Source: Rhodanobacter sp. FW104-R8 (GTDB lineage Bacteria; Pseudomonadota; Gammaproteobacteria; Xanthomonadales; Rhodanobacteraceae). From it: a DNA stretch of 64,000 nucleotides. Of this stretch, positions 1 to 2,679 are shown one piece after another (position 1 is the stretch's first letter; each line of letters opens with the position of its first letter). The notes under the pieces are model-generated. The model saw only the letters and a program-made list of their open reading frames with translations. It ran no database searches and had not been told where the DNA came from. The position numbers and the translations under genes were made by a program. The DNA lies in the NCBI RefSeq assembly GCF_001617365.1, contig NZ_LVJR01000016.1, positions 1-64,000 of the forward strand, written 5' to 3'.

Positions 1-32
1 GGCTTCGCTCCCGCTCTTGATCTGGCTCTTTT

Positions 33-273
33 GAAGAGTGCGCGCCGGGAGCGCGCTGCTCTTCCCGGGGCCCCTCTGAAGCGGCGGGCGGGTGGTGGAT
101 CAGCCCGCAGGGTGGCCGGCACGGAGGCCGGCCAGTTTGTCGTCAGGGCAGGAAGCCCTGTCGACAAACCCCACCGCCTGGACGCGGACCTTGCGGGCAG
201 GAGGCCCGCAAGGCGCGCAAGCGGGGTGGCCTTTCTCTTGGGTTACTTTCTTTTTGGCCACGCAAAGAGAAAG
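33..273 (+). repeat. Tandem multi-hairpin intergenic element
   Basis: Five stem-loops in a row fill this gene-free stretch. Stems are 33-64 (inner arms 40-45/51-56, loop CGGGA), 113-120/127-134 (loop ACGGAG), 136-149/155-168 (loop AGGAA), 189-198/204-213 (perfect 10 bp, loop AGGAG) and 231-239/265-273 (CTTTCTCTT/AAGAGAAAG). The first four all expose GGA in the loop on the + strand. The right end encodes the GHAKRK tail that is often mis-called as a protein in this bacterial group. From general knowledge this resembles a repeat abundant between genes in Xanthomonadaceae-type genomes. Positions 274-339 hold nothing else I can name. Confidence 0.6.
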
Positions 274-339
274 TGACTCGGGCGCCGCAGGCGCACGAAA
301 GCTCTGAAAACAACCTTTACAAGCGAAGCATCAACCAGC

Positions 340-1344
340 TCAGAACGTGCGCTGCACCGAATAATCCGCCAGCGTCCCCAGCGCGTCGCGATGTGCCGAA
401 GGAGCCAGCGCGGCCAGCGCCTCACGGGCGGCGCGGGCGTGCAGCAGGGCGCGGTCGCGGGTGCGCTCCAGCGCGCCGGAGTCGCGGATCGAGGCGATGA
501 TGCGGTCCAGCGAGTCGAGCCCGCCGTGCTCGATCGCGTGGCGCAGCGACTGCACCTGTTCCGGGTTGGCCTTCTCCAGCGCGTAGATCAGCGGCAGGGT
601 CGGCTTGCCCTCGGCGAGGTCGTCGCCGATGTTCTTGCCCAGGGTGCCGGCGTCGCTGGTGTAGTCCAGCAGGTCGTCGGCGATCTGGAACGCGTAGCCC
701 AGTTCCATGCCGTAGCGGCGCAACGCGGTCACTTGCGCTTCCGGCAACCCGCCGAGCAGGCCACCCAGTTCGGTGGCGGCGGCGAACAGCACCGCGGTCT
801 TGCGTTCGATCACCGCCAGGTAGGCTGCCTCGCTCACGTCGGCGTTGCCGATGTTGAGCAACTGCAGCACCTCGCCTTCGGCGATGGTGTTGGTGGTGTC
901 GGCGAGGATGCGCATGATGCGCATATCGTCCAGTTCCACCATCAGCTGGAACGAGCGCGAGTACAGGAAGTCGCCGACCAGCACGCTGGCGGCGTTGCCC
1001 CACAGCGCGTTGGCGGTCTTGCGGCCGCGGCGCAGGTCGGATTCGTCGACCACGTCGTCGTGCAGCAGGGTGGAGGTGTGGATGAACTCGATGATCGCGG
1101 CGAGCTTGGTGTGCTGCTCGCCGCGGTAGCCGGCCGCGCCGGCGGCCAGCACGTGCAGCATCGGGCGCAAGCGCTTGCCGCCGCCGGCGATGATGTGGTC
1201 GGCGATCTGGTTGATCAGCACCACGTCGGAGGACAGCCGCCGGCGGATCAGCCCGTCGACGCGCTGCATGTCGGCGGCGGCGAGGTCGCGCACCTGGGCG
1301 AAGTCGGCGGGGCGGCTGGCGTCGGCGGGCATCGTCGTGGTCAT
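340..1344 (-). CDS. ispB: Octaprenyl/polyprenyl diphosphate synthase
   Basis: Class I trans-isoprenyl diphosphate synthase, 334 aa. It condenses IPP units onto farnesyl diphosphate to make the long side chain of ubiquinone, in the cytosol or at the membrane. The first Asp-rich motif DDVVD is at residues 96-100 and the second, DDLLD, at 223-227. The GGGKRLRP substrate-binding motif is near residue 54, and the length is normal for the family. The start MTTTMP was chosen because similarity to the family begins shortly after it; the much longer upstream open frame is antisense to the neighbouring transporter. A TATAAT -10-like hexamer lies 29-34 bases upstream. The ribosome-binding site is weak. 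Confidence 0.95.
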   Translation of the reverse strand: MTTTMPADASRPADFAQVRDLAAADMQRVDGLIRRRLSSDVVLINQIADHIIAGGGKRLRPMLHVLAAGAAGYRGEQHTKLAAIIEFIHTSTLLHDDVVDESDLRRGRKTANALWGNAASVLVGDFLYSRSFQLMVELDDMRIMRILADTTNTIAEGEVLQLLNIGNADVSEAAYLAVIERKTAVLFAAATELGGLLGGLPEAQVTALRRYGMELGYAFQIADDLLDYTSDAGTLGKNIGDDLAEGKPTLPLIYALEKANPEQVQSLRHAIEHGGLDSLDRIIASIRDSGALERTRDRALLHARAAREALAALAPSAHRDALGTLADYSVQRTF

Positions 1345-1372
1345 GGGGGCTTCGGGGGCGTGAATCGTTCCG

Positions 1373-1443
1373 ATTATAGGGCCTGCAACAACTTGCGCCG
1401 CGACATGTCGCCACAAACCCCGACGCGGGGCGCCCTCTATAAT
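1373..1443. promoter_or_regulatory. Back-to-back -10 boxes between ispB and the yajR-like gene
   Basis: A perfect TATAAT reads on the - strand at 1378-1373, toward ispB. Another reads on the + strand at 1438-1443, toward the transporter. No convincing -35 hexamer is visible at 16-18 bp for either, so the promoter assignment rests on the -10 match and the divergent layout. Confidence 0.4.
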
Positions 1444-1476
1444 GCCGGCCATGCCTTTTCCGACAGCTGTCCCCCG

Positions 1477-2679
1477 GTGAGCAAACTCTCCAGCCTCGAA
1501 CTGCGCAGCGCGCTGACCCTGGCCTGCGTGATCAGCCTGCGCCTGTTCGGCCTGTTCCTGATCATGCCGGTGTTCTCGCTGTACGCGAAGGGGATGCCCG
1601 ACGCCAGCGGTTTCATGATCGGGCTGGCGCTGGGCGTCTACGGCATCGGCCAGGTGCTGCTGCAGATCCCGCTGGGGCTGCTGTCGGACCGGATCGGGCG
1701 CAAGCCGGCGATCACCTTCGGCCTGCTGCTGTTCGCCCTCGGCGGGCTGATCGCGGCGATGTCGCACACGCTCGCCGGCATCGCCGTGGGGCGCGCGGTA
1801 CAGGGCATGGGCGCGGTGGCCGGCGCCGGCATCGCGCTGGCGGCGGACCTCACCGCCGAGGAAAACCGCGGCAAGGCGATGGGCATCATCGGCGTGTCGA
1901 TCGGCCTGGCGTTCCTGCTGGCGCTGATCCTGGGGCCGCCGCTGGAGGCGGTCGCCGGCCTGCCCGGGCTGTTCGCCGCCACCTCGATCCTGGCCCTGGC
2001 CTCGCTGGCGCTGCTGTGGCTGATCGTGCCCACGCCGGCGCGCGCCCGTGCACCGGCCGCGGCGGGCGTCGGCCAGGTGCTGGCGATGCTGCGCGACGGG
2101 CGGATGCTGGTGCTGAACGGCTCGGTGTTCTTCCTGCACGCGCTGCTCACCGCCAGTTTCGTCGGGCTGCCGCTGCTGCTGGCGAACACGCTGCACCTGC
2201 CGGTGAACCGGCACTGGGAGCTGTACCTGCCGGTGATGACGGTTGCCGCGTTCGTGATGGGCGCGAGCCTGCACTACATGCGCGAGGTGGCGCAGAGCCT
2301 GCGCATCGTGACGGTGTGCGTGGTGGCAATCGGGCTGGCCTTGCTCGGCTTCGCGTTGTCCGGCCGTCACCTGGCCGCGTTCGGCGCGGCGGCGGCGGTG
2401 TTCTTCTCCGCCTTCAACCTGCTGGAGGCGGCGCTGCCCAGCCTGGTCTCGCGGCTGGCTCCGGAGCACCTGCGCGGCGCGGCGATGGGCGCCTATTCGA
2501 CCAGCCAGTTCATTGGCGCGTTCGTGGGCGGCACGCTCGGCGGCATCGCGCTGGGCCGGCTCGGCCCCGACGGCGTGTTCGTCTGCGCCGCGGCGCTGAC
2601 CCTGCTGTGGCTGCCGCTGGTGGTGTCCGGCTCGCGCCGGATCGCTCGCGCCGCCATCGCGCAGGTGCAGCCCGTGTAG
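1477..2679 (+). CDS. YajR-like MFS transporter lacking the C-terminal YAM domain
   Basis: Major facilitator superfamily permease of 400 aa with twelve predicted hydrophobic segments. The loop 2-3 motif A reads GLLSDRIGRKP, and the N-terminal half (FGLFLIMPVFSLY, GIYGxxQ-like segment, DLTAEENRGKAMG) resembles Escherichia coli YajR. YajR has an extra cytoplasmic YAM domain after the last helix; this protein ends right after helix 12 with a basic tail. The GTG start at 1477 is preferred because it begins just ahead of the first helix and lies 34 bases after a TATAAT box. An in-frame ATG at 1405 would sit upstream of that box. The substrate is unknown; a drug or metabolite proton antiporter is likely. 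Confidence 0.8.
   Translation: MSKLSSLELRSALTLACVISLRLFGLFLIMPVFSLYAKGMPDASGFMIGLALGVYGIGQVLLQIPLGLLSDRIGRKPAITFGLLLFALGGLIAAMSHTLAGIAVGRAVQGMGAVAGAGIALAADLTAEENRGKAMGIIGVSIGLAFLLALILGPPLEAVAGLPGLFAATSILALASLALLWLIVPTPARARAPAAAGVGQVLAMLRDGRMLVLNGSVFFLHALLTASFVGLPLLLANTLHLPVNRHWELYLPVMTVAAFVMGASLHYMREVAQSLRIVTVCVVAIGLALLGFALSGRHLAAFGAAAAVFFSAFNLLEAALPSLVSRLAPEHLRGAAMGAYSTSQFIGAFVGGTLGGIALGRLGPDGVFVCAAALTLLWLPLVVSGSRRIARAAIAQVQPV

Follow-up and report, generated by a model that had tools for sequence, protein, structure and literature searches.

CsrA/RsmA proteins usually grip a GGA triplet displayed in a hairpin loop. A tandem arrangement of two hairpins whose loops read A(N)GGA(N), found in gamma-proteobacteria, is common to the TwoAYGGAY motif (RF01731) and to the element described here, and the proposal that TwoAYGGAY binds CsrA is said to have come from Gardner and Eldai. 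In the accessible part of one source, validation of this proposed binding is pending (PMC4333381). Weinberg et al. considered TwoAYGGAY to be probably an RNA and probably not cis-regulatory, and listed it for Clostridiales too (PMC2864571, accessible part); R-scape work gave the motif additional covarying pairs (PMC7657543 and PMC11701678, accessible parts). For RsmE, the high-affinity rule is a hexaloop ANGGAX placed directly on the stem. Loops without N bind less tightly; RsmZ SL3 and SL4, with their five bases, are of this kind, and variations of this sort reduce the affinity 10- to 1000-fold (PMC4005645, accessible part).

Layout and distribution of the element

We analysed a stretch of 64,000 nucleotides (the window), which begins at base 1 of contig C16 of a 3.72-Mb Rhodanobacter genome. 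Positions 1–306 of the window make up half of an inverted element that is dispersed in this genome and whose halves lie head-to-head. An earlier note, made from the sequence of the window, had described four tandem hairpins with loops CGGGA, ACGGAG, AGGAA and AGGAG at 33–213 of the forward strand, and all four are confirmed at that place and with those loops (Table 1). The repeat unit spans about 1 to 306 and contains extra conserved structure at 226–294, namely a pseudoknot formed with hairpin H5, followed by hairpin H6.

Table 1. Features of the half element and its neighbouring gene (window coordinates)
Feature	Position	Strand	Details
Inner (centre-side) end of the half element, type A	1–32	+	Same sequence as the inner end of copy L006 at the end of contig C22
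Hairpin H1	33–64	+	Inner hairpin 40–56, loop CGGGA 46–50, outer stem 33–64
Hairpin H2	113–134	+	Loop ACGGAG 121–126, GGA 123–125; folding, covariation
Hairpin H3	135–169	+	Inner hairpin 144–160, loop AGGAA 150–154, GGA 151–153, outer stem 135–169
Hairpin H4	189–213	+	Loop AGGAG 199–203
Pseudoknot strand GTGGC	226–230	+	Pairs with GCCAC 257–261; most variable pair GC18/CG6/UA3
Pyrimidine tract Py1	232–239	+	Predicted third (Hoogsteen) strand, parallel to purine arm 264–273
Hairpin H5	242–277	+	242–256 pairs with 263–277, loop 257–262
Hairpin H6 (282–294) and outer end ACGAAAGCTCT	279–305	+	Alignment of copies; outer ends persist in scars
Neighbouring gene, polyprenyl-diphosphate-synthase-like	340–1344	−	DDVVD motif, named by eye; start codon by eye

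Hairpins were counted when they had a perfect stem of at least 6 and GGA inside a loop of 4–6. By this rule there are four in 33–213; among 5000 dinucleotide shuffles, 4868 contain none, 128 contain one and 4 contain two. The remainder of the 64-kb window contains three on the forward and two on the reverse strand. Folded as RNA, the forward strand of 33–213 reaches −116.5 kcal/mol, compared to −90.55 kcal/mol (sd 4.45) in 200 shuffles (z −5.83). The minus strand folds equally well (z −6.16), and folding energy alone therefore cannot pick the strand. A coding reading would use the open reading frame at 31–276, which overlaps the hairpin array; element lengths vary among copies. The 3′ end of the polyprenyl-diphosphate-synthase-like gene points toward the element.

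A BLAST search with the stretch 1–330 finds 21 places in its own genome, some of which are pieces of one copy, and about 20 copies are present. The stretch 36–306 matches all 35 other genomes of the same genus in our sample and 39 of 60 genomes overall. Many copies within the genus are 70–90% alike, and the aligned copies fall into two types, A and B. The inner sequence shared by the window copy and the end of C22 would be explained by a break of the assembly at the palindrome centre.

Among the 63 model matches in four complete genomes, 9 are singles and the others lie in 27 head-to-head (−,+) pairs within 6 kb; none of these 63 copies belongs to a tail-to-tail (+,−) pair. The GGA strands of head-to-head pairs face outward. 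The centre between close halves measures 43–228 bases, with one of 285, and the units mostly combine one A half with one B half as judged by eye (exceptions include L068 and L071). Of 25 close neighbour pairs formed by RF01731 matches of five genomes (copied by hand), 24 also have the (−,+) order, as do 23 of 24 neighbour pairs of matches to model R2 (see below), which were picked mainly for having a neighbour. Family f2 of the order shows reversed, tail-to-tail (+,−) close pairs in G136, G175, G047, G206, L109 and L114; L118 of the same family has the (−,+) order.

Copy L018 (G000 C73:5587-5926) has its H5 module split by an insert of about 70 bases, which itself seems to carry a GGA hairpin on the opposite strand. 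Other dispersed repeats lie beside or inside some units (flanks of L005, L006 and L007; centres of L056, L064 and L086). They comprise TGTAGGAGC..GGGCGATGC hairpins as well as C-rich/G-rich tracts that, by eye, resemble the BoxC/TM triplex motif.

Within the order, model R1 has matches in 67 of 200 genomes (29 of 69 genera). Model R2, built from 53 matches (alignment A3), has matches class-wide in 86 of 369 Gammaproteobacteria genomes (70 of 272 genera). The exact H5 pattern occurs in 94 stretches; carriers among the 80 listed include Xanthomonas, Dyella, Pseudomonas, Azotobacter, Solimonas and Thalassocella. When 24 of these stretches were viewed by eye, two GGA hairpins preceded H5 in most of them, with L220, L245 and L215 having no GGA hairpin and L256 and L202 having one. 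An H5 module was also seen in a Firmicutes-labelled bin (L268, a Selenomonadaceae MAG); this could reflect mis-binning or a genuine occurrence, TwoAYGGAY being listed for Clostridiales too.

Among 30 weak-match genomes that were viewed, many have the same H5 module with a TGTYTGAGCG...CGAGTT hairpin replacing the GGA hairpins; these modules often form inverted pairs. In L358, L377, L384 and L331, for example, a hairpin of the TGTYTGA...CGAGTT type precedes the same predicted triplex pseudoknot. This GGA-less branch also occurs in genomes encoding CsrA, and 12 GGA-less or similar loci gave no credible match in Rfam 15. Relatives share the 3′ module and differ in the interior. Since the GGA-less branch keeps the same 3′ knot, the constant core of the element consists of the pair and the 3′ knot, and GGA is a trait of one branch.

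RF01731 has no match in window 1–1500 at E values up to 1 (model cut-off 43 bits), and nothing in Rfam exceeds its cut-off in that stretch. Six of 14 genomes tried (G215, G317, G389, G499, G471 and G592) have RF01731 matches, and in each of these six the matches overlap those of R1 or R2; the other eight, including the Rhodanobacter genomes G000 and G024, have none. The best RF01731 scores on class relatives are 58.2 and 65.5 bits in two scans, and in the overlaps checked the RF01731 matches stop before the H5 module. The window loops of H2 (ACGGAG) and H3 (AGGAA) are not exactly AYGGAY, whereas other copies have ATGGAT or ATGGAC. We conclude that the element is very probably a structured, dispersed and paired homolog of TwoAYGGAY.

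Stem covariation, loop conservation and the 3′ pseudoknot

At 90% identity, the 84 genus copies are represented by 35, of which 29 diverse ones make up alignment A1. With the structure including the pseudoknot, 96.0% of its cells are paired and double changes occur in 30 of 48 pairs. There are 220 double-changed cells, compared to 65.2 in shuffles and at most 33 in slid controls, and the covariation is 0.456, compared to 0.174 in shuffles. The closing pair of H2, H3 and H4 is C-G in 27–28 of the 29 copies. The compensatory stem changes with kept GGA loops for which the earlier note had proposed to search are thus present; since the stems vary with compensation and the loops keep GGA, the opposite pattern (loops varying freely on stems conserved as DNA) did not occur.

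In A3 (53 matches from 20 genera), the H2 loop contains GGA in 49 rows, the H3 loop in 52 and the H4 loop in 20, the last being divided into 11 of 12 genus rows and 9 of 41 rows beyond the genus. The class-wide alignment A4 (57 of 63 rows, the 6 weakest being dropped) has GGA in H2, H3 and H4 in 55, 54 and 20 of its 57 rows; as the model used to find these rows was itself built from GGA copies, they are biased toward GGA. Of 81 hairpins at the H1 position within the genus, 37 have the loop A[GGA]T and 29 have A[CGA]T. A count of loops of the form A(N)xxx(X), covering 78 elements from 75 of the 86 genomes, gave GGA 92 times and each of seven control words 2–8 times. The H2 stem has a mean column identity of 0.51 in A3 and is 98.6% Watson-Crick.

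Cells with G·T outnumber those with A·C by 82 to 5 in A3 and by 92 to 23 in A4, indicating that the GGA strand is the folded strand. In A4, H5 has 61 G·T versus 1 A·C, and the bias is reversed for H4 (15 A·C versus 10 G·T). G·T accounts for only 1.0% in H2 and 0.2% in H3 of A3, and this scarcity in much-changed stems suggests that the palindromes of H2 and H3 are corrected at the DNA level.

Upstream of H5 lies a GTGNNN strand, followed by Py1, and GTGNNN pairs and covaries with the H5 loop. At least four complementary bases between the two are found in 89 of 108 elements, compared to a mean of 33.9 and a maximum of 46 in 500 permutations. Py1 mirrors the 5′ arm of H5 and hence matches the purine arm in the parallel Hoogsteen sense. 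Among 101 genus copies, the fit of Py1 is better in parallel orientation in 57 and in antiparallel orientation in 2, with 38 ties and 4 untestable copies, many of the wins being by one base of eight. Class-wide, parallel is better in 72, antiparallel in 12 and the two tie in 22 of 106. The third-strand match of Py1 is 0.957 observed and 0.844 (sd 0.0065) permuted; as the elements are related sequences, neither the Py1 nor the pseudoknot counts are p-values. The predicted third strand would stay parallel to the purine strand across sequence changes. The stems and the pseudoknot are backed by covariation, and we infer the triple helix from the mirror tract.

We propose that the GGA strand folds single-stranded, most likely as RNA, into two to four GGA hairpins, an H-type pseudoknot and a last hairpin, in this order. 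The first loop of the pseudoknot would be the pyrimidine tract, lying in the groove of the second stem and forming a U•A-U / C+•G-C triple helix.

RsmA/CsrA as candidate ligand

H2 mostly fits the strong ANGGAX form, and H3 and H4, where GGA is kept, have the strong or the weaker form. The five-base A-GGA-X loops of H3 and H4 are of the same kind as those of RsmZ SL3 and SL4 (PMC4005645, accessible part). Judged from the form of its loops, RNA of the element is likely bound by RsmA; whether such binding is the reason for the GGA is, in our estimate, evenly balanced.

CsrA was found in 313 of the 369 genomes, including G000. It was not found in 12 of the 86 element carriers and in 44 of the 283 others (hand comparison of lists). 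Counted as genomes with and without CsrA, those with GGA hairpins number 44/9 and those lacking them 20/2 (p 0.49); for good genomes the values are 40/3 and 20/2 (p 1). There is no co-occurrence beyond chance, and this comparison therefore neither supports nor excludes CsrA as the ligand. Of the good genomes, 28 of the 60 that encode CsrA and none of the 5 without it have at least two GGA hairpins, by hand count and with a threshold set post hoc. Nine genomes have a GGA hairpin and no CsrA match; six of these are less than 90% complete or more than 5% contaminated, and the remaining three (G338, G354 and G508) have one GGA hairpin each under a loose loop rule. The idea that GGA hairpins are lost together with CsrA (G338, G454, G508 and G490) was rejected, because weak-match genomes with CsrA hold the same GGA-less branch.

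For the promoter types covered by our scan, there are no promoter-like sites in window 1–400. A central promoter for two divergent RNAs was not seen in the one pair that was scanned with its centre. Terminator-like sites number 2 in window 1–400, compared to 0.9 in shuffles, and 1 in one pair, compared to 0.7. Among 20 of the 84 matches of G215 that were fetched, the tandem contexts comprise 2 sense and 4 antisense cases and show no sense preference.

The earlier note had interpreted the array as a dispersed RsmA-binding 3′ UTR or sponge element. Part of this interpretation stands, in that the element is dispersed, its stems covary, GGA is kept in H2 and H3, and the C-G-closed A(N)GGAX loops have the form bound by RsmE/CsrA. 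Other observations weaken it: H1 often has CGA, H4 mostly lacks GGA outside the genus, the hairpins do not track CsrA, and neither a promoter-like site nor a sense preference in tandem contexts was seen.

Since the GGA strands face outward, the GGA array would form the end of any transcript that starts in the centre or leaves an enclosed gene, and RNA reading through from outside would include one half in sense orientation. The GGA hairpins would most likely bind RsmA/CsrA in such 3′-UTR or readthrough RNA, with the scattered sites jointly acting as a sponge, and the triplex knot may protect the 3′ side of the RNA. The conserved outer modules and the pair layout, in turn, would most likely let the element spread, sometimes carrying foreign genes. 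The explanation that we put first, and to which we give about half of our confidence, is that the locus is half of a TwoAYGGAY-related inverted element specifying an RsmA-binding RNA with a triplex knot.

Possible mobility, enclosed genes and comparison with known systems

The site orthologous to G000 C22:88649-89286 was matched in 40 genomes, and 16 loci were inspected. Four contain an element pair, three contain scars, six are without the element and three contain other DNA. The scars (L152, L160 and L163) are about 35 bases long and consist of the outer ends AGAGCTTTCG and CGAAAGCTCT (with variants) fused end-to-end. No target duplication was seen by eye at this one site. Inverted ends, dispersed copies and insertion polymorphism at an orthologous site are MITE-like traits.

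Seven of the 27 pairs in the complete genomes enclose 1.1–5.4 kb. In 15 enclosed intervals (12 from the genus and 3 from G102, which belongs to another genus), the GC content is 0.49–0.64, compared to 0.63–0.70 in the surroundings, and it is lower in all 15. We scanned 20 enclosed proteins against Pfam and 10 of these with PADLOC; open reading frames were partly covered, with none from L134 and L135. TIR_2, CAP12/Pycsar TIR (PADLOC PDC-S35), Abi_C, NERD, zinc ribbon, AraC, SDR, MAM and DUF4826 are above the Pfam cut-offs, as is an SMC-like ATPase that matches 78 PADLOC families (best LmuB, 1.7e-19). Trypsin_2 and DUF2127 are below the cut-off, and 8 of the 20 proteins have no family. Genes for TIR, Pycsar-TIR, Abi_C, SMC-like ATPase or NERD proteins lie between inverted halves at L132, L140, L071, L072 and L068. 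The lower-GC genes in pairs are possible defence-gene cassettes; the domain tally covers these inserts and does not imply enrichment over low-GC inserts in general.

These observations bear on the alternative that survives best, which we regard as plausible without favouring it: the element could be MITE-like or fold-back mobile DNA whose folded strand is read during movement, CsrA being irrelevant. The GGA hairpins and the triplex knot would mark an ssDNA or RNA intermediate for a postulated enzyme. This would explain why one orthologous site is occupied in some genomes and empty in others, and why three genomes have end-to-end scars there, although palindrome deletion can also produce scars and target duplication is not apparent by eye at that site. 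The inverted pairs are very constant, also in the GGA-less branch, but their order is reversed in several f2 genomes. The conserved 3′ module with its variable interior, the few G·T in H2 and H3 and the enclosed foreign genes, whose GC content lies below that of the surroundings in each interval, point to mobile DNA as well; against this stand the loop form, which closely equals the CsrA-bound form, and the fact that no transposase tied to the family was met incidentally.

It is improbable that the element is a neutral DNA repeat, with hairpins kept perfect by palindrome template switching and loops that are alike through a recently spreading ancestor. The H2 stems have an identity of 0.51 and yet present GGA loops across genera and other orders, G·T is preferred over A·C, and both the mirror tract and the pseudoknot follow the changes of their partners. 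In favour of this explanation are the few wobble intermediates in H2 and H3 and the similarity of many genus copies.

The flanking genes of 33 pairs, called with a simple GC-by-codon-position rule, are convergent in 10, tandem in 22 and divergent in 1 case (4 pairs without two flanking genes were dropped), and 12 of the 20 singles fetched from the 84 matches of G215 are convergent. A replication-strand bias had been suspected for G215, where the gene context instead points to convergent placement. Least probable of all is a bidirectional terminator or mRNA-end stabiliser between genes with incidental GGA loops: it would fit these positions at gene ends, but any tolerated insertion is expected there, no clear U-run terminator is present, and the GGA loops would be left unexplained.

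The RsmA-binding reading and mobility may both apply, the element being an RsmA-binding RNA and a mobile element at once. As a more tentative and rather doubtful generalization, there could be a mobile fold-back family throughout the Gammaproteobacteria with outward triplex-pseudoknot ends, in which the GGA branch (including TwoAYGGAY) adds RsmA sites and the pairs carry single foreign genes, often with anti-phage roles. The unexplained TwoAYGGAY motif would become part of something larger, namely a dispersed element with inverted halves and a conserved, predicted triple-helix knot. Should its loops be bound by RsmA, a global regulator would be rewired or buffered by a mobile repeat; otherwise, this would be a new kind of structured mobile element that moves foreign genes, some of them for defence.

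What is new beyond TwoAYGGAY is the 3′ pseudoknot with its mirror tract, the inverted pairs, the class-wide spread, the site polymorphism with scars and the enclosed genes. In the accessible parts of the papers naming TwoAYGGAY, we saw no mention of inverted-pair dispersion, H5, H6, scars, enclosed genes or mobility, and no description of such a repeat beyond TwoAYGGAY was found in the literature searched, which was mostly open to non-subscribers.

REP/BIME, ERIC and other MITE-like repeats differ from the element in size, ends and loops. Like the element, they are dispersed intergenic palindromes that occur in pairs (see also PMC2817692). CsrB/RsmZ/RsmY-type sRNAs share with the element several GGA-loop hairpins on one RNA strand, and RsmU of Xanthomonas campestris stems from a 3′ UTR (PMC7694677, accessible part). 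These RNAs, RsmU included, are single expressed genes that bind protein, whereas the element is a repeat of up to tens of copies known from sequence; its roughly 20 copies differ from the one or few loci per genome of CsrB/RsmZ.

In telomerase-type triple-helix pseudoknots, loop 1 lies in the major groove of stem 2. The predicted knot of the element would place Py1, its first loop, in the groove of the second stem and is similar to them in this geometry. A triplex formed by one strand is also common to the element and to the intrastrand triplex repeats (PIT/BoxC/TM), and the strand order Hoogsteen, pyrimidine, purine of the element corresponds to class IV in the accessible part of that work (PMC4666352). 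The motif studied there is tied to unstable sites. It is a 37-nt G/C-rich purine triplex, whereas the element has a pyrimidine motif within a pseudoknot that is joined to GGA hairpins (PMC4666352, accessible part).
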